DNA of 64,000 nt from Emticicia sp. C21 (GTDB lineage: Bacteria; Bacteroidota; Bacteroidia; Cytophagales; Spirosomataceae). The stretch's first letter is position 1. Every line of letters starts with the position of its first letter. The DNA is taken from positions 62,001 to 126,000 of the forward strand of contig NZ_QVMT01000003.1 of assembly GCF_003418935.1 (NCBI RefSeq), read 5' to 3'. Positions 2,577-63,263 of the stretch are shown one piece after another. Both the position numbers and the translations under genes were made by a program. Below the pieces are notes generated by a model. That model saw only the letters and a list, made by a program, of their open reading frames with translations, did not search any database and was not told where the DNA came from.

Positions 2577-3071
2577 TTACACCTGATATTTCTTTCTGTT
2601 TGAAAGAAAATAGTCAATCAAAACCAAAGAGCTAACGGCAAATAAACACGCTAACATGAGCGCAGGAAGCGCATTGATTTGCCTGATAATTTCGCCCGTA
2701 ACCTGATTAATGTTACTAGCTAGTGGAAGAGGTTTATTGTTCGTTTGAGCCGATTTACCGAAAAGGCTAATTAAAGTTATAATAAAAGTGGCGGTCATAC
2801 CTATACCATACCAGACCCTTTTACTGATAATAGGCTTAAAAACTACCTTACTCTCTAATCGCTCTATATCTTTCATCAAATTTTGAGTAAAATCAATAGA
2901 TGGCTCTTCTATCAGATGTTTCTCCAGTAAAGCGTCTAAAGCCGGATTGACTACAATGGCTTCCTGTGCTTCAATCTTTTGGATAAGTATAGTAGTAAAA
3001 TCAGCCGTTGGCTGGTCTGGTTCTACTGATTGAATCAGTTTTTTTAGCTTGTATTCTTTGTCCTGTGCCAT
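2577..3071 (-). CDS. Putative membrane anti-sigma factor
   Basis: A 164-residue protein of unnamed family, encoded 13 bp downstream of an ECF sigma factor. The N-terminal cytoplasmic half holds two related segments, PTADFTTILIQKIEAQE (21-37) and PSIDFTQNLMKDIERLE (57-73), sharing P-[ST]-x-DFT and a following K/D-I-E. Two membrane segments follow, at about 86-105 and 133-156, with a short polar loop between them. There is no zinc-binding HxxxCxxC motif, so it is not a ZAS-type anti-sigma. The role is inferred from gene order and topology: holding the sigma factor at the inner membrane. The duplicated segment could be the sigma-binding helix. Confidence 0.55.
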   Translation of the reverse strand: MAQDKEYKLKKLIQSVEPDQPTADFTTILIQKIEAQEAIVVNPALDALLEKHLIEEPSIDFTQNLMKDIERLESKVVFKPIISKRVWYGIGMTATFIITLISLFGKSAQTNNKPLPLASNINQVTGEIIRQINALPALMLACLFAVSSLVLIDYFLSNRKKYQV

Positions 3072-3084
3072 CCTCCTGAATTTT

Positions 3085-3633
3085 TTATAACAAAAAATGC
3101 AATTCCTGTTCTAATTTTTTCCTTGCCCGAAACAGCTTAATCTTGATATTATTCATAGCCAATCCTGTTATTTCTTCAATCTCTTTCAACGAATTTTCGT
3201 TCAGATAATATAAAGTAATCAGCAAGGCTTCACCTTTAGGAAGCCGCTGAATGGCCTCCTTTACATATCGCTGCTCTTCTTTTGTTTCTAATGCAATAGA
3301 TGGAGGGCTTGTTTCATCAATTACATAGTTCTGATGAGCCTCATCGTCAATCGTTAAAAACTCTACTTTATTTTTAGGTAACTTATTGAGTGCGGCTCTA
3401 TACACAATGGTATAAAGCCAGGTTGAAAACTTTGATTTATTCTCAAATGTATGAATTTGCTGATAAGCTTTCAGAAAACTTTCCTGAATGATGTCTTCGG
3501 CATCTTCTCTGTTGTTTATAATTTTTAAAGCTACCGTAAAAGCCATGTTTTTGTATTTATTCACAAGAAATGCATAAGAAGCCGAATCTCCCTTTTTTAC
3601 TCGTTCTATATAGGCTTGGTCTTCTGTATACAT
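3085..3633 (-). CDS. RNA polymerase ECF sigma factor (sigma-70 family)
   Basis: A 182-residue sigma factor with region 2 (YAFLVNKYKNMAF through DAEDIIQESFLKAYQ and the promoter-melting FSTWLYTIVYRAALN) and region 4 (RLPKGEALLITLYYLNEN, then a helix-turn-helix with LKEIEEITGLAMNNIKIKL). No C-terminal extension is present, as expected for ECF sigmas. I place the start at the ATG at 3633 (MYTEDQAYIE). A longer frame from 3750 adds 39 residues with no sigma homology. The next gene, 13 bp downstream, encodes a two-TM protein that is probably its anti-sigma factor. The regulon is unknown; many Bacteroidota ECF sigmas serve envelope or nutrient responses. Confidence 0.9.
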   Translation of the reverse strand: MYTEDQAYIERVKKGDSASYAFLVNKYKNMAFTVALKIINNREDAEDIIQESFLKAYQQIHTFENKSKFSTWLYTIVYRAALNKLPKNKVEFLTIDDEAHQNYVIDETSPPSIALETKEEQRYVKEAIQRLPKGEALLITLYYLNENSLKEIEEITGLAMNNIKIKLFRARKKLEQELHFLL

Positions 3634-3802
3634 TAATTCTTGGGTAGTCTTTGTTGTATAGTAAGACAAACATCTGCCAGCGGTGGTTACAGGATAATCA
3701 GTATTTTTTATGAAATTTATTTTTTGAAAAATCTGTAACCAACCATTCATTCCCTTTGTCTTATGGGTGTTAGTTCGATAATCATTTAAAATTACTACAA
3801 AA

Positions 3803-4144
3803 ATGGATGAAATATTAAGAGACGCGTTGGTATCGGTTTCTGCCTTTGCAGGGATTTTCGGTATAGTCTACGTTTATCTGACTGCCCGCAACCGCGAACG
3901 CCTACTGATGATAGAACGCGGCACAGATGCCTCAAAACTGTTTAATTCCAGAGGTCGCTTACAGTTACAGACACTAAAGTTCGGAATGCTTTTCGTAGGC
4001 ATTGCCCTTGGGATTTTAATAGGGAATATTCTTCATAAAAAATATGATTTAGACAAAGGAGTAGCCTTTTTCTCGATGGTATTCCTCTTTGGCGGCCTCA
4101 GCTTAATAATCCACTTTCTTATCGATAGGAAAATCAAAGATTAA
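3803..4144 (+). CDS. DUF6249-like small membrane protein
   Basis: A 113-residue integral membrane protein with three hydrophobic segments: residues 8-27, about 55-75 and 86-107. A basic cytosolic motif, ARNRERLLMIERGTDAS, sits between the first and second. The RxRxxLIERGTD pattern is typical of the DUF6249-type proteins often encoded beside ECF sigma factors in Bacteroidota; the family name is from memory. It is divergent from the sigma/anti-sigma pair with about 170 bp between their starts, so the two may share control. The function is unknown. Confidence 0.6.
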   Translation: MDEILRDALVSVSAFAGIFGIVYVYLTARNRERLLMIERGTDASKLFNSRGRLQLQTLKFGMLFVGIALGILIGNILHKKYDLDKGVAFFSMVFLFGGLSLIIHFLIDRKIKD

Positions 4145-21837: not shown

Positions 21838-21923
21838 CAACCCCACACCCCAACCCCTCCGCAGCGGCGGCGGCTCCCCATTGTTGGGAAGGGTTAGGAC
21901 GGTCGCCCGCTGGCGTGGGGTTG
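21838..21923. repeat. CCCCACACCCCAACC repeat with two G/C-rich tracts
   Basis: An imperfect palindrome beginning caaccccacaccccaaccc and ending cgtggggttg, with ctccccattgttggg inside. A second copy is at 63146-63263. Two tracts of almost pure G/C interrupt it, at 21861-21873 (gcagcggcggcgg) and 21899-21913 (acggtcgcccgctgg). In the other copy, similar tracts fall at different positions. It lies between the TolC gene and the small exported protein. Confidence 0.7.
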
Positions 21924-30595: not shown

Positions 30596-30956
30596 AATAC
30601 GTGAAATAATTTATTAGATTGGAAAATGATTTATAAACGGTAACAGGCAGACGACGAGATAATGCAAAGTTGGTGAAATTTATAAGGTGAACGTTAGCTC
30701 AAATAGAACAATCTTTAACTCATTTTGGACATTCTTATTGAGTGGTAGGATTAAATAGAGGATTCTACAAAACCTTTGTAAGAAACAGTATTTTTACACC
30801 ACTTACATTTAATAATTGCTATAAACTGGAAAAAAAAATAATATACCACAGAATATTTTTTAATAGTATTTGAATTAATATTTTCTGTAAATTGCGCATA
30901 ATCTGAATATTGTTCTAAAAATCTGTAACTAAAAAACTACCGCTCGGCGGCCACTT
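30596..30956. other. A/T-rich upstream region without a gene
   Basis: 361 bp between divergent genes. No credible coding frame. It is strongly A/T-rich apart from the G/C tract at 30939-30954. No clear -33/-7 promoter pair was found. Confidence 0.5.
30939..30954 (+). other. G/C-rich microtract just before a start codon
   Basis: accgctcggcggccac lies in very A/T-rich sequence and ends 2 bp before the ATG at 30957, where the ribosome-binding leader should be. Its reverse complement matches 14 of 15 positions of the tract at 38422 (ggccgccgMgcggt core). Confidence 0.7.
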
Positions 30957-33900
30957 ATGAATCTTCGATTTATACTATTCTTCTTATTAACAACTTCGTT
31001 TCATTCGTATTCACAAAGACTTTTAAAAGACATTGCCTCTTCTGATGCAAGTTCGAATATTAATCAGAGTTTCGTAGATTTTAATAATAATCTGATAAAA
31101 GGCGATACGCTATTCTTTCTGGCTCAGGATACTTCTTTTTTCTATAAACAATATAAAGATATCTGGTTTACAACTGGTACAGCAGCGAGCACAAGGAAAG
31201 TAACCAGTGGGGATTATTATTCATCAAGTTTTTATACCTTTCTGACTTCTTTTAAAGGTAAAGCTTATTTTAAAAACCTATATGAGCCAAATTTATATGC
31301 TGCTGATGGCAATACCATTACGGTTGTAAAGACTTTTAACAATAGTATTATTAAAAAGGCAGGTATTATAAATGGATGGCTCTATGTATTTGTAAGTAAT
31401 AATACCAACAATACTTTAGAACTGTGGAAAACTGACGGCACTGAAGCCAACACAAGTAAAATAACCGATGTGTATAGCGGTACACATTTCTTTTATGATA
31501 CGCTATATGAAAGCAATTTTTTAAGTACAGGAGAAAAAATTTATTTTAAGCTTACAACTGATGCTTATGACAACGAACCATGGGTTACAGACGGAACCTC
31601 AAATGGTACCAGACTATTAAAAAATACAGTCAATGGACCAAGTTTACTTAAGGACTTTAAGAAGGTGGGTAATACCGTCTTTTTTTGTGCTTATAACACC
31701 ATTAATCAATCTAAATTATGGAAAACCGATGGCACTGAAGCAGGAACGGTTGTGGTTGCTGACGCCATTGATGGCAATCAGAATTATAATCCCCAGACTA
31801 GTATAAGCTATAACAATGAATTGTATTTTATAGCAAACGATAATAAATTCTATAAAACTGATGGGAGTACCATCACATTAGTACGAGATAATCTAACAGT
31901 ATTGCATAATCAACTGATGTTGGGAGATATTGTAAAAATGAATGATCTGATGTATTTCATCAGAAAGAATGCTTTTGATTTCGAACTATGGAAAAGTGAT
32001 GGAACAAACAACGGCACACAAAAGATTAAAACAATCCTGATGACCCCCTATAATAATTATATGAACATCAGAATTCTTGCCGGAACTTCAAAAATATACT
32101 TTCAATTGGCAGTGACCAGTGGTGGGGTATTTGAAAATATTACCCAGCACTGGGTAAGCGATGGCACTGCTGAGGGAACTATCAATATCAGTACGCTGAA
32201 TCCTATTTTTTCTAATGGTTCTTATAATGATCAACTGGCTGTTGTTGGTGATACCTATTATTTTACTGCCTATGACGCCCTCAACGGTTTTGAGTTATGG
32301 AAATCTAATGGTACACCGATAGGTACCATGATGGTGAAGAATATCAACCAAAGTGTCACTTCTTCTGCTCCGGCACAGTTTGTAGCGTTCAATGATGAAG
32401 TCTATTTCACGGCTGATGATATAAAACATGGACGTGAAATCTGGAAAACAGATGGTGCCTCTGCCAATACTACGCTGGTAGCAGATTTGAATGCGAGTTC
32501 TATTTCTGATATAAATTATTCCTCTGACGTTTCAGGGATGATTGCCTATAATGATGTAATTATTGCGCAAATTACTCATCAGTTAGTGAAGTTTAACAAA
32601 ACTATGCCTCCAACAGTTTTTTTTGTTTCAACTCATGGAAATCCAAAGAACCCTGAATTTACCAGATTTAATAATAAAATTTATTATAAGGGCTGGGTTA
32701 ATGATAATAACCCCGGAGGCGGAGGCTATGAACTTTTTGCAACTGATGGCACTGATGCTGGTACCGCTAAAGTGAAAGATTTTAGTAACTATTATTTAGG
32801 CGGAGATCCGAGTAACCTGCTGGTTTGGGACGGCTTATTATATTTCATAACAGAAGATAATACCAAAATATGGAAAAGTGATGGAACCGAAATAGGTACA
32901 GTTTTAGTAAAAAACCTTACGGGGGGTACTATTAAATCAAAATTTTATGAGGCAAACGGTGTGCTGTTATTCCTTTATGAAAGCCCAACCTATGGGCTTG
33001 AATTATGGAAAACCGATGGCACAGAGGCAGGTACTGTTTTGGTAAAAGATATTAATCCGGGTGTAGGAGGGGCTGGCATCACAAATCCGGCTGTGTATAA
33101 TAATAACCTCTTTTTCGTGGCTACTAACGGAAGCAGTTATGCCCTCTACAAGTCTGATGGCACCAGTGCCAATACTCAGGTTTTTAGTAGTGTAATAAGT
33201 ACTAACATACCTGCAGTATTTAAGAACAAACTATTCTTTATCTCCTATGATCCAAACGGTTATGCGTTATGGGCAATAGACGGAAATTCGGCGCCGGTTA
33301 AAATACAGAAATTGACAAGTACTATGCATAATGCGGGTGCTGCTGTATTGATGAATGTGAATGAAGAGATACTTGTTTTTGACGTAGCCCCTAATACCGC
33401 CAGGCACGAATTATGGGCTTCTAATGGTACCACAGCAGGCACAAAACTGGTGAAAATTATCCGGCAAAAAGAATTCAATGATACTTCCATAAGGATTACG
33501 GAATATATTTATAATAACCGTAAACTCTATTTTGCAGTTGATGACGGAATTAATGGGAAAGAACTCTGGATGTGGGATTTCGATTGTCAGGAATTGATGA
33601 CTATCACCAATCCTATCACTCAGGATTATGATTATACAGTTGATAAATATATAGTGGGCAGTAATAAAATTAATGCCAACATAAAAGCGAGTTATAATGC
33701 TAACAAATACATTACGCTCAATCCAGGATTTGAAACAAAAGCAGGTGCCCGTTTTTCGGCTACTATGAATGGCTGTATCGTGGTTGCTACCTCGTCTAAT
33801 TCAAGTTCGAACGAGCCTGTTTTTAAGAATTTCCCTACAAAAGTAGATGCTATGCCAGGTATTATTCAATTTTTGAATAACCCTATAAATGCTGAATTAC

Positions 33901-37139: not shown

Positions 37140-37316
37140 TGATTTGGTGAATGAGTGATTGTGTGATTAGTGTCTTGAACTTTGCCGCGACGGCGGACCG
37201 TTTTAACTGATTAAGCTGATTATTATGATTAACTAGAAAAAATGGTTCTTAATTATATCAAGTAAGATTATGGTATCAGTTAAATCATGAAATCAGGTAA
37301 ATCATAGTTCAAGACA
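37136..37316. repeat. Composite repeat: single octamer arm plus GTCTTGAACT hairpin
   Basis: 37136-37169 is a one-sided octamer array (tttagtg, atttggtg, aatgagtg, attgtgtg). It overlaps the MOSC stop codon. Next, tgtcttgaact (37171-37181) is inverted at 37306-37316 (agttcaagaca), with related TGATTA/TTAACTGAT words inside both arms. The left arm is interrupted by a G/C tract, ccgcgacggcggaccg (37185-37200), absent from the right arm. The element ends 9 bp before the next start codon. Confidence 0.7.
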
Positions 37317-38379: not shown

Positions 38380-38573
38380 GAGTGAATAACTAATTAGTGA
38401 TTTAGTGAATTAGTGATTGAGCGGCCGCCGCGCGGTGATTATAATCTTGAATGCGGACGTCGCGCGGGTGAATTGTGAATTAGTGAATAATAATGAAACA
38501 TAGTGTGCCTTTATGTACATATTTGGTAAATTCTAATCACTAAATCGCTCAATCACTCATTCACTCAATTTTC
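38380..38573. repeat. Inverted octanucleotide array with two G/C tracts, locus 3
   Basis: Left arm 38380-38420 (attagtg, atttagtg, aattagtg, attgag) and right arm 38533-38573 (reverse complement attgagtg, aatgagtg, attgagcg, atttagtg) are inverted octamer arrays. Two near-identical G/C tracts interrupt the left side: 38421-38437 and 38453-38470, both of the form gcggNcgNcgcgcgg followed by tg. The right arm encodes the last residues (LSE) and stop of the cytochrome b5-like gene. Confidence 0.8.
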
Positions 38574-38787
38574 CCACCGCCTTAAACCTCTGGAAAACAC
38601 CCTCTGCGTGCGGTGCGTCTTTCAGTTCATCGGTTAGGTCTTGTCCGGCCCAGTGTTCATAGTGTTTACCGTTACGCCATAACCTTGAATGGGTTACATC
38701 ATAGATAATCGACTGATAGGCAATCCAGATTTCTTCCTTATCCTGACCATTACGCAAAGCCAACTGATTTCGGGTATACTCTTTCAA
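38557..38787 (-). CDS. Cytochrome b5-like heme-binding protein
   Basis: A 76-residue single-domain protein of the cytochrome b5/MAPR-like family. EEIWIAYQSIIYDVTHSRLW is the first strand-helix unit, and NGKHYEHWAGQDLTDEL with APHAEGVF carries the candidate heme-contacting histidines (H42 or H45, and H60). Cytosolic, no signal. It could donate electrons to an oxidoreductase such as the MOSC protein at 36333 (inference from proximity only). The final codons and stop TGA lie inside the octamer repeat, so the repeat has become part of the gene's end. Confidence 0.85.
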   Translation of the reverse strand: MKEYTRNQLALRNGQDKEEIWIAYQSIIYDVTHSRLWRNGKHYEHWAGQDLTDELKDAPHAEGVFQRFKAVGKLSE

Positions 38788-61168: not shown

Positions 61169-61847
61169 ACAGGAATCTTTTACAAATTGTTTTGCAAGAT
61201 AAATGGATAAAACTTAATTTTCTGAAAATCTGAGGAAATGTTGGAGAAAGAGATTTTACCAATTAAAGTTGTCTGAAAATTTGAACGACAGCAGATGATT
61301 TTTTATTATGCAGTTAAATTGTAGTGCCAACAGACCATTCTTGCTTCAAGTGTTGAGATGAATAATAGGGTATGCCTTAATTAGTTTGTCTTCATAGTCT
61401 TGGGTTGTTACTTTTTTTACCTGAAAAAAAGTAACCCTGGCCGGGCGCCCAAAAAGCAGGCATCATTTAAACTCGTACAATTAAAAATCTGATAGACCTT
61501 TCCTCTATTCATTATTTTAACCCGGATTTTTAATCGTAATCAAACAGGAAATGATGTTTTAAGGTTACAATTTTTAATTGTATCATATATACGTTATTCT
61601 GACTCAGTATAAATTTTTGTCATGTAAGTTTTGACAAGGGTCAGTAATTGATAGAAAAATATAGTACTTGCTGACTTTTATATTTGTTAGCTAATAGTTT
61701 AATCCCATAGTAAGAATTCGGCTTTTGAAGGAGTAACGAGCTGATGTCATTAATGCAAACCTCACTCCTACATCCAAAACGTCTTTATTCCCATGCAAAG
61801 AAACAAAATTGTTCCACTGTATTATAATTATTCAACCTTAATAAATC
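61169..61847. other. Noncoding region with hairpin repeat
   Basis: About 680 bp without a credible gene. It contains the GTTAC(T)n hairpin and G/C tract at 61407-61450. I found no promoter with both elements for either neighbour and no RNA gene. Confidence 0.55.
61407..61450. repeat. GTTACTTTTTTT hairpin with adjacent G/C tract
   Basis: gttacttttttt (61407-61418) pairs exactly with aaaaaaagtaac (61424-61435) around a short loop. The G/C tract cctggccgggcgccc (61436-61450) comes immediately after, followed by aaaaagcagg. It looks as if a G/C tract had been placed in an AAAGTAACCAAAAAGC repeat, a common type in Bacteroidota. Confidence 0.65.
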
Positions 61848-63145: not shown

Positions 63146-63263
63146 AACCCCACACCCCAACGGCAGCGGCCGACCGTCCCTCTCCCCATTGTTGGGGAGA
63201 GGGGCACTTTGTTCTCTTCCCCATTGTTGGGGCGGACGCCGCGGAAGGGTTAGGGATGGGGTT
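63146..63263. repeat. CCCCACACCCCAACC repeat, second copy, with two G/C tracts
   Basis: aaccccacaccccaa opens and ggatggggtt closes a palindromic element that contains ctccccattgttgggg twice. G/C tracts cggcagcggccgaccgtcc (63161-63179) and gcggacgccgcgg (63232-63244) interrupt it at positions different from those in the copy at 21838. It begins 8 bp past the oxidoreductase stop codon. Confidence 0.75.

Follow-up and report, generated by a model that had tools for sequence, protein, structure and literature searches.

The two near-identical GC-rich tracts at 38421 and 38453 of the window (the whole 64-kb stretch of contig C23 analysed here, approximately 39% GC, from the 6.64-Mb genome of an Emticicia, family Spirosomataceae) are members of a family of clean 14- to 16-bp insertions, a reading that is supported by the comparison of homologous copies. 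The inserts are alike in structure more than in sequence. Each consists of a 4-base stem, a loop of three or four bases, a second 4-base stem and a tail of three or four bases (4+3+4+3, 4+4+4+3, 4+3+4+4 or 4+4+4+4). The two stems pair in helix 1. Helix 2 joins two composite stretches, one formed by the final three bases of the loop plus the adjoining base of the 3' stem, the other by the final three bases of the tail plus the adjoining target base. The helices interleave as X n Y X' n Y', with the target supplying the last base of Y'.

Both tracts are present where the first-pass annotation had placed them, and their copy number is beyond chance. The sequence GCGGNCGNCGCGCGG is found at both sites, and 17 bp lie between the tracts; the first (38421-38435) reads GCGGCCGCCGCGCGG with TG next, and the second (38453-38467) reads GCGGACGTCGCGCGG with GTG next. 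The tracts of the window, with the palindrome that holds these two, are as follows.

38421 to 38434, plus strand: 14-bp insert GCGG-CCG-CCGC-GCG with target base G38435; helix 1 has 4/4 pairs and helix 2 has 4/4
38453 to 38466, plus strand: 14-bp insert GCGG-ACG-TCGC-GCG with target base G38467; helix 1 has three Watson-Crick pairs and a G.T, helix 2 has 2/4
38382 to 38576, no strand assigned: octamer-array palindrome with both of these inserts in its left arm; the right arm (38530-38576) is without an insert
37186 to 37201, minus strand: insert ACGG-TCCG-CCGT-CGCG with target G, within a GTCTTGAAC..CTGATT repeat and conserved in Emticicia sp. BO119 (G007)
30940 to 30953, no strand assigned: tract CCGC-TCG-GCGG-CCA, ending 3 bp 5' of an ATG at 30957; the sample shows no repeat around this tract
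21859 to 21873, plus strand: tract CCGC-AGCG-GCGG-CGG with target C, in a CCCCATTGTTGGGG-type palindrome missing from orthologous sites
21900 to 21915, minus strand: tract CGCC-AGCG-GGCG-ACCG in the opposite arm of the same palindrome as the 21859 tract; its loop is identical and its stem compensated
61435 to 61450, no strand assigned: 13-14-bp GC insert in a AAAAGTAACCAAAAA repeat, a clean gap against locus L119; weak fit to the grammar
63162 to 63177, minus strand: D-type insert ACGG-TCGG-CCGC-TGCC with target G (G000:C23:125161-125177)
63229 to 63244, plus strand: shortened A-type tract GCGGACGCCGCGG at the joint of TTGGG and GAAGGG, in a palindrome of the type that carries the 63162 insert

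The nine tracts that the first-pass annotation had grouped as a wider family are, in essence, a true group: those at 38421, 37185, 21861, 21899, 63161 and 30939 have a full four-pair helix 1 and the one at 38453 has three pairs with a G.T, although 61436 and 63232 fit less well. That annotation held that the tracts lie only between genes, which is so for those listed in the window but not elsewhere, where they occur inside tRNA-like and transposase sequences; and the A/T-rich repeat in which it saw them is just one among several unrelated tract-bearing repeat families. The annotation had not picked up the grammar of secondary structure, the bias towards repeated DNA or the distribution through the family. 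The octamer array was not reported by tandem-repeat finding, and an Rfam search of the 64-kb window gave zero matches. The tract at 30940-30957 sits at the expected ribosome-binding position of a 1025-aa ORF, where an effect on translation is possible.

The genome contains the pattern of the two tracts 24 times exactly; with up to two mismatches there are 68 matches genome-wide, versus 8 for the pattern read backwards. Intergenic GC-rich segments, a count that takes in some from outside the tract family, number 22 in 246 kb of our genome (G000), against 1.0 expected under a first-order Markov model; the relatives' stretches have 6 (1.0 expected; Emticicia agri 17J42-9, G001) and 4 (0.7 expected; G007). 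The first-pass annotation had allowed that such counts might match a shuffled background, and genome-wide they lie far above it. Among 11 genomes of the genus, at one mismatch or fewer, G001 has 127 matches, G000 48, G007 23, G004 6, G009 5, G010 4, G005 3 (its reversed control has 6) and G008 2, with 0 in G002, G003 and G006, and a scan with the two-helix grammar in Emticicia returned 91 matches versus 4 in reversed sequence. Two fixed subtypes, A and D, recur across genera of the Spirosomataceae. The A type is present in 83 of 222 family genomes; one of them, G066, has three exact copies, the first within an IS, the second within a tRNA-like copy and the third at L194. Outside the family, matches to A in an order sample of 390 genomes came to 0-2 per genome (3 in one), nearly all of them in family f12, where reversed controls were similar in size, and a class sample had matches in 3 of 227 genomes, our own counted. 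Thus, in these two samples the A type is not enriched beyond the Spirosomataceae. Within the family, D (at most one mismatch) is found in 104 of the 222 genomes, with reversed controls at 0-3 per genome, and it abounds in genera where A is scarce or absent, so the dominant type varies by genus. The occurrence of identical 15-17-mers in unrelated targets and in many genera points to a conserved source or continuing spread; an evident chromosomal template did not come to notice.

That the tracts are the footprint of a tiny insertion, as the first-pass annotation had proposed, is borne out by clean 14-16-bp differences between homologous copies. The three Emticicia stretches (G000, G001 and G007) are largely collinear, with identity mostly of 75-88%. 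The orthologous octamer palindrome in E. agri has neither the 38421 nor the 38453 insert, Emticicia sp. BO119 carries a different repeat at the position of the palindrome, and locus L023 is a paralogous site of the 38453 insert. At several sites one or both relatives are without the entire tract-bearing palindromic repeat (e.g. 21861 and 63161), and at 237591, in the numbering of the GC-rich-segment scan, repeat and tract are likewise absent as a whole from one or both relatives. Empty sites therefore exist, as opposed to tracts fixed in all relatives from an ancestor, although the 37185 tract is common to the sister species G007 and is therefore older; it is contained in the public record L067, and NZ_JACETV010000005.1 holds an orthologous copy.

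Among homologous copies there are 48, 22 and 16 distinct indel sites at 14, 15 and 16 bp, versus 4, 9, 2 and 2 at the neighbouring lengths of 12, 13, 17 and 18 bp, and the GC content is at least 0.75 at 35, 15 and 14 of the three main classes. For this count the overlapping loci L136, L206, L137 and L029 were left out, distinct flanks were counted, and inserts alike up to strand and rotation were taken as one. Small indels are also common (5 bp at 36 distinct sites, 6 bp at 31), so that 14-16 bp forms a second peak of the spectrum. Between Emticicia paralogues 37 gaps measure 13-16 bp, and the GC content is 0.8 or higher in 26; alignments of orthologues, which are mostly coding, yielded nine, of which one was GC-rich. 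In a second genome set (12 loci of other genomes together with G133, G136, G137, G140, G186 and G193) 16-bp gaps made up 18 of the 36 gaps of 5-40 bp, and all 18 were GC-rich. Insertion is precise, a point that we count as established, and takes place between R and G: among the 43 of 61 sites with an orientation score of at least 4, A or G precedes the insert in 36 and G follows it in 41, the latter figure being inflated because the score rewards a G after the insert. No clear target-site duplication was seen in the aligned copies, where mostly a single G is ambiguous and a few sites shift more widely; a 1-bp duplication of G is compatible with the data where insert and target both begin with G. 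The lengths of the inserts agree with the layouts from 4+3+4+3 up to 4+4+4+4.

The length and structure grammar and the covariation that goes with it are likewise counted here among the observations. The stems differ but their pairing is mostly kept (GCGG/CCGC, CCGG/CCGG, CAGG/CCTG, GTGG/CCAC, TCGG/CCGA, ACGG/CCGT and others), and the tails of verified inserts are mostly (N)GCG, ACG, CCG or TGCC. Across 39 distinct inserts helix 1 has a mean of 3.38 of 4 pairs, versus 2.56+-0.12 in shuffles given equal freedom, and the two helices together have 6.15 of 8, versus 4.29+-0.15 (the maximum of 300 shuffles being 4.69). Eleven of the 39 are fully paired, where shuffles give 0.06, and in seven helix 1 reaches only one or two pairs in the best joint parse. 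When the parse is fixed by helix 1, helix 2 has 40 of 60 pairs versus 32.2+-3.0, a moderate gain that was reached in 51 of 5000 permutations. In an alignment of 13 16-mers with their target base, one of two (14 and 13 sequences) that were picked and oriented by hand, 98.1% of the helix 1 positions pair, and both partners vary at four of four pairs; for helix 2 the pairing is 94.2%, and both partners vary at two of four. The pairing extends to the target. An A there lies opposite a guide T in L156, L202, L153 and L115, and also in L185, whose tract-free counterpart L209 has G; where the target is G its partner is usually C. The commonest subtype, the 14-mer GCGG-ACG-, has an A.G mismatch at the target base, and exceptions are found in L200 (guide G, target A) and in L137 (a D copy followed by T). 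The folding energy of single inserts, tried for eight, showed no clear gain over dinucleotide shuffles (z from -1.61 to +0.31), with two 15-mers adopting helix 1 and six 17-mers helix 2. Energy is uninformative here because strings of G and C fold regardless, and it is covariation rather than folding energy that supports the structure. Pseudoknots share the X n Y X' n Y' arrangement. A true pseudoknot is doubtful because the loops are so short, and we infer that alternative hairpins or intermolecular pairing are the likelier forms.

We found the tracts predominantly in repeated and mobile DNA, a preference that we also count as established. In a 1.33-Mb sample of Emticicia, 58 tracts are intergenic and five lie in ORFs of at least 100 aa; within the sampled part of its own genome the flank is repeated at 56 of the 58 and four of the five, versus 191 (G000), 270 (G001) and 102 (G007) per 1000 intergenic sites taken at random. 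Both for the tracts and for the controls the counts of repeated flanks are minimum values, and the copying of repeats that already bear a tract contributes some of the excess. One set of G001 stretches in the sample had been selected for A-type tracts, and the other stretches for synteny with the window. Local inverted repeats are only weakly enriched (in the G001 sample, at 10 of 45 tracts versus 40 of 300 random sites), so hairpins alone do not explain the preference for repeats. The hosts include octamer arrays, palindromes of the CCCCATTGTTGGGG, CCCTACGGGA and CCCCTTTAGGGG types, and an element of approximately 212 bp with TTTAAACATACTCT ends, in which copies L009, L021, L113, L120 and L123 have a tract in common at one site; some tracts have evidently spread with their host repeat. 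This MITE-like repeat, whose ends are AGAGTATGTTTAAA/TTTAAACATACTCT, occurs in G001 and G000 at L009, L021, L113, L115, L120, L123 and L126, with up to three different tracts per copy. At loci L252, L253, L254, L264 and L265 of G133 and G136, D tracts occupy the two arms of CCCCTTTAGGGG palindromes as exact inverted pairs with a spacing of approximately 50 bp; these arms may have been homogenised, and other copies are single-armed. At L087 (G000:C23, approximately 200.0-200.5 kb) several CAATTGCTATTGA repeats carry a tract-like GTGGCCGCCACGCG joined to G, and the orthologous spot in G001 and G007 has A/T-altered versions that resemble the decay of an old tract.

In other genera the tracts lie, by our reading, near the stem-loop junctions of tRNA-like copies, in the anticodon arm and the T-arm. 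The tRNA-like copy of L196 is exactly 14 bp longer than the copy next to it, and L192 holds tandem tRNA-like copies with A and D tracts. The L192 array (2981-3813; G082:C1, approximately 6.390 Mb) has seven A tracts at a spacing of approximately 136 bp, six of them with a D tract 36 bp further on; its units are tandem 3' halves resembling tRNA-Val, and the array may be either the decayed remnant of an integration site or an independent repeat. IS3-like transposase sequences also carry tracts, and one element can hold several independent inserts. Alignment to L209, which is tract-free, shows 14-16-bp gaps at five places in L137 and at three in L206, two of the L137 gaps being absent from L206, and the comparison of L156 with L148 reveals seven 14-16-bp inserts in a single IS alignment of 783 columns. 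In alignments of at least 300 columns among the IS loci, indels are of 14-16 bp or of 1-3 bp, with one of 5 and one of 8. By our own reading of the frames, transposase motifs are interrupted between TWS and MDF in L137, L142 and L148 and between DNGP and EF in L141 and L146. Nested tracts are found at L189 and L251. A plasmid megablast with the L137 IS gave zero matches, and a plasmid blastn with L209 gave zero matches at 80% query coverage; among the matches listed for L209, 20 records are 13% matches to IS3-like sequence. With the L148 IS as query, plasmid blastn found a Hymenobacter IS3 element at 66% identity; its aligned length falls short by 44 bp (1166 vs 1122), a difference that is suggestive only.

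The best mechanism that we can offer for these observations, and one that we hold tentatively, with more doubt than belief, is the single-strand insertion of mini-hairpins by an HUH-like enzyme. The tracts would be micro-elements of 14-16 nt whose single strand could form two interleaved 4-bp helices. They would be inserted as single-stranded DNA, Y would act as a guide that selects, by base pairing, the joint Y' between tail and target, and the exposure of single-stranded or folded DNA would make repeats, IS copies and tRNA-like arrays favoured targets. There is precedent in the way that HUH/Y1 transposases, both those of IS200/IS605 and those of REP systems, pick their cleavage site; the available part of PMC8266576 describes a guide that pairs with the cleavage site in IS608 and in one REP system whose stems measure 5 bp. 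No tract of the strict grammar was found within approximately 1-4 kb on either side of ten Y1 transposase genes from nine genomes, and a looser scan of these neighbourhoods gave one partial D match of 11 bases, at L233. The presence of Y1 does not follow that of the tracts: 181 of the 222 family genomes have Y1 genes, tract-poor ones included, and G070 has tracts with no Y1 match. Reverse transcriptase (RVT_1 in 101 of 222) is, by eye, unmatched to tract abundance; G125, a genome 87% complete, has 44 exact tracts and no RVT_1 match. Argonaute fares likewise by eye, with Piwi in 18 of 222 and in none of G000, G001 and G007, so that no RVT_1, Piwi or Y1 match in the 222 genomes tracks the tracts.

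The main rival is a repeat-directed genome defence, comparable to fungal repeat-induced mutation, in which multi-copy or mobile DNA would be recognised by the cell and mini-hairpins, most of them frameshifting, placed within it. Of the readings considered, this one best accounts for the bias towards repeats and IS: flanks are repeated at 56 of 58 intergenic tracts versus 10-27% of random intergenic sites, the seven inserts of the 783-column alignment stand beside IS indels that otherwise measure 1-3 bp bar the two named above, the conserved transposase motifs of diverged IS copies bear inserts, and inserts of 14 and 16 bp change the frame. Inserts of 15 bp preserve it, however, non-coding palindromes carry tracts too, RVT_1, Piwi and Y1 do not track the tracts, and the tract-free L209 is also without a long transposase ORF in its aligned part (pieces of 77-106 aa). 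We consider this defence possible but doubtful. Its fullest form, in which a bacterial system senses multi-copy or mobile DNA and writes into it mostly frameshifting two-helix hairpins of 14-16 bp, the joint being chosen by pairing of the hairpin with one target base, would be an insertional analogue of repeat-induced mutation and is rather doubtful. The tracts could instead be selfish micro-elements that insert anywhere, persist only in dispensable DNA and are then copied with their host repeat, as suggested by the common tract site of the 212-bp copies, the D tracts in both palindrome arms and the presence of the 37185 tract in the sister species. Yet only two of the 58 intergenic tracts lie in unrepeated DNA, which makes up approximately 73-90% of random intergenic sites in the sample, and among 13-16-bp events the GC-rich ones are 1 of 9 in the mostly coding orthologues versus 26 of 37 in paralogues, so we regard this account as unlikely.

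Synthesis at broken ends, untemplated or by snap-back (an addition like that of terminal transferase, with hairpin priming), would yield the order X Y X' Y' and could account for variable stems with their pairing kept, for the match of Y to the target base and for the nested tracts of L251 and L189; but identical A and D 15-17-mers across many genera and targets are unexpected of untemplated addition, making it improbable. A binding site for a chromosome-organising or regulatory protein, which the first-pass annotation had also suggested, would fit a motif that recurs through the family and is mostly intergenic in Emticicia, but here the sequence varies while the pairing is kept, tracts lie within transposase genes and pseudo-tRNAs, and sister species differ in their presence. 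This reading is disfavoured, and we think it very improbable. The programmed repair product that the same annotation proposed is possible. Assemblies do err in repeats, but an artefact of assembly or data is scarcely credible given tracts in the single-contig genomes G066 and G082 and in many independent genomes, the orthologous copy in NZ_JACETV010000005.1, and the structural grammar with its covariation.

If insertion of mini-hairpins as single strands is the correct reading, the tracts would rank among the smallest insertion units defined for cellular DNA, a structural code would tie each insert to its target, and something in the Spirosomataceae would be adding DNA preferentially to repeats and transposases. 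It opens to test how a hairpin of 14 nt can be mobile, or be written without lasting duplication, and whether repeat-directed inactivation exists in bacteria. Annotators should be warned, because IS copies, tRNA-like repeats and REP-like palindromes of this family can hold inserts of 14-16 bp.

The exact tract strings had no match in the literature searched, and no system of this sort was among the best matches listed. Rickettsia palindromic elements are palindromes that insert in genes, as some tracts do, and are approximately ten times longer. In fungal repeat-induced point mutation the changes concentrate in repeated DNA, a likeness to the tracts, but they are C-to-T changes rather than insertions. 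MITEs and other DDE transposons have terminal inverted repeats and a target-site duplication of several bp, a combination that the tracts lack. The products of diversity-generating retroelements or retrons need a reverse transcriptase, for which G125 has no RVT_1 match, and prokaryotic Argonaute defence needs a Piwi-domain protein, which G000, G001 and G007 are without. Transposition of IS200/IS605 is not known to leave a target-site duplication, and the tracts resemble it in this respect, a 1-bp G being possible. A further likeness would lie in the recognition of a single-stranded hairpin and the choice of the junction by base pairing of an internal guide, as described in the portion of PMC8266576 available to us; but IS200/IS605 has a fixed target of 4-5 nt where the tracts have only R and G, its guide lies 5' of the hairpin and theirs in the loop, and the tract is too short for two ends. 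Yeast mitochondrial GC clusters are also GC-rich palindromic micro-elements, mostly intergenic and variably present, but in the excerpted account of PMC4478555 they are mitochondrial, measure for example 42 nt and have a putative AG target duplication, which the tracts do not show; the tracts are bacterial, 14-16 bp long and prefer repeats. REP/REPIN elements with TnpA-REP (RAYT) combine a short tag and a hairpin, have many copies and are thought to be mobile (PMC3733652 and PMC8266576, in part), the tags being GTAG or CGTC and the stems 5-13 bp (GTAG) or 8-9 bp (CGTC) in the passages of PMC3733652 to hand. The tracts differ from them in having no GTAG or CGTC tetranucleotide next to the hairpin, in their 4-bp stem of hypervariable sequence, total length of 14-16 bp and interleaved second helix, and in their presence within IS genes and tRNA-like copies; REP elements are mostly extragenic, and of the tracts 58 are intergenic and five in ORFs in Emticicia, with transposase genes among the hosts in other genera; and while GTAG-type REP copies flank their Y1/RAYT gene, strict-grammar tracts are near 0 of the 10 Y1 loci in the nine genomes. 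Since no known system has its full defining set of features in common with the tracts, we file them under none and rate them as categorically new in kind, the nearest conventional reading being a degenerate single-strand REP-like system.
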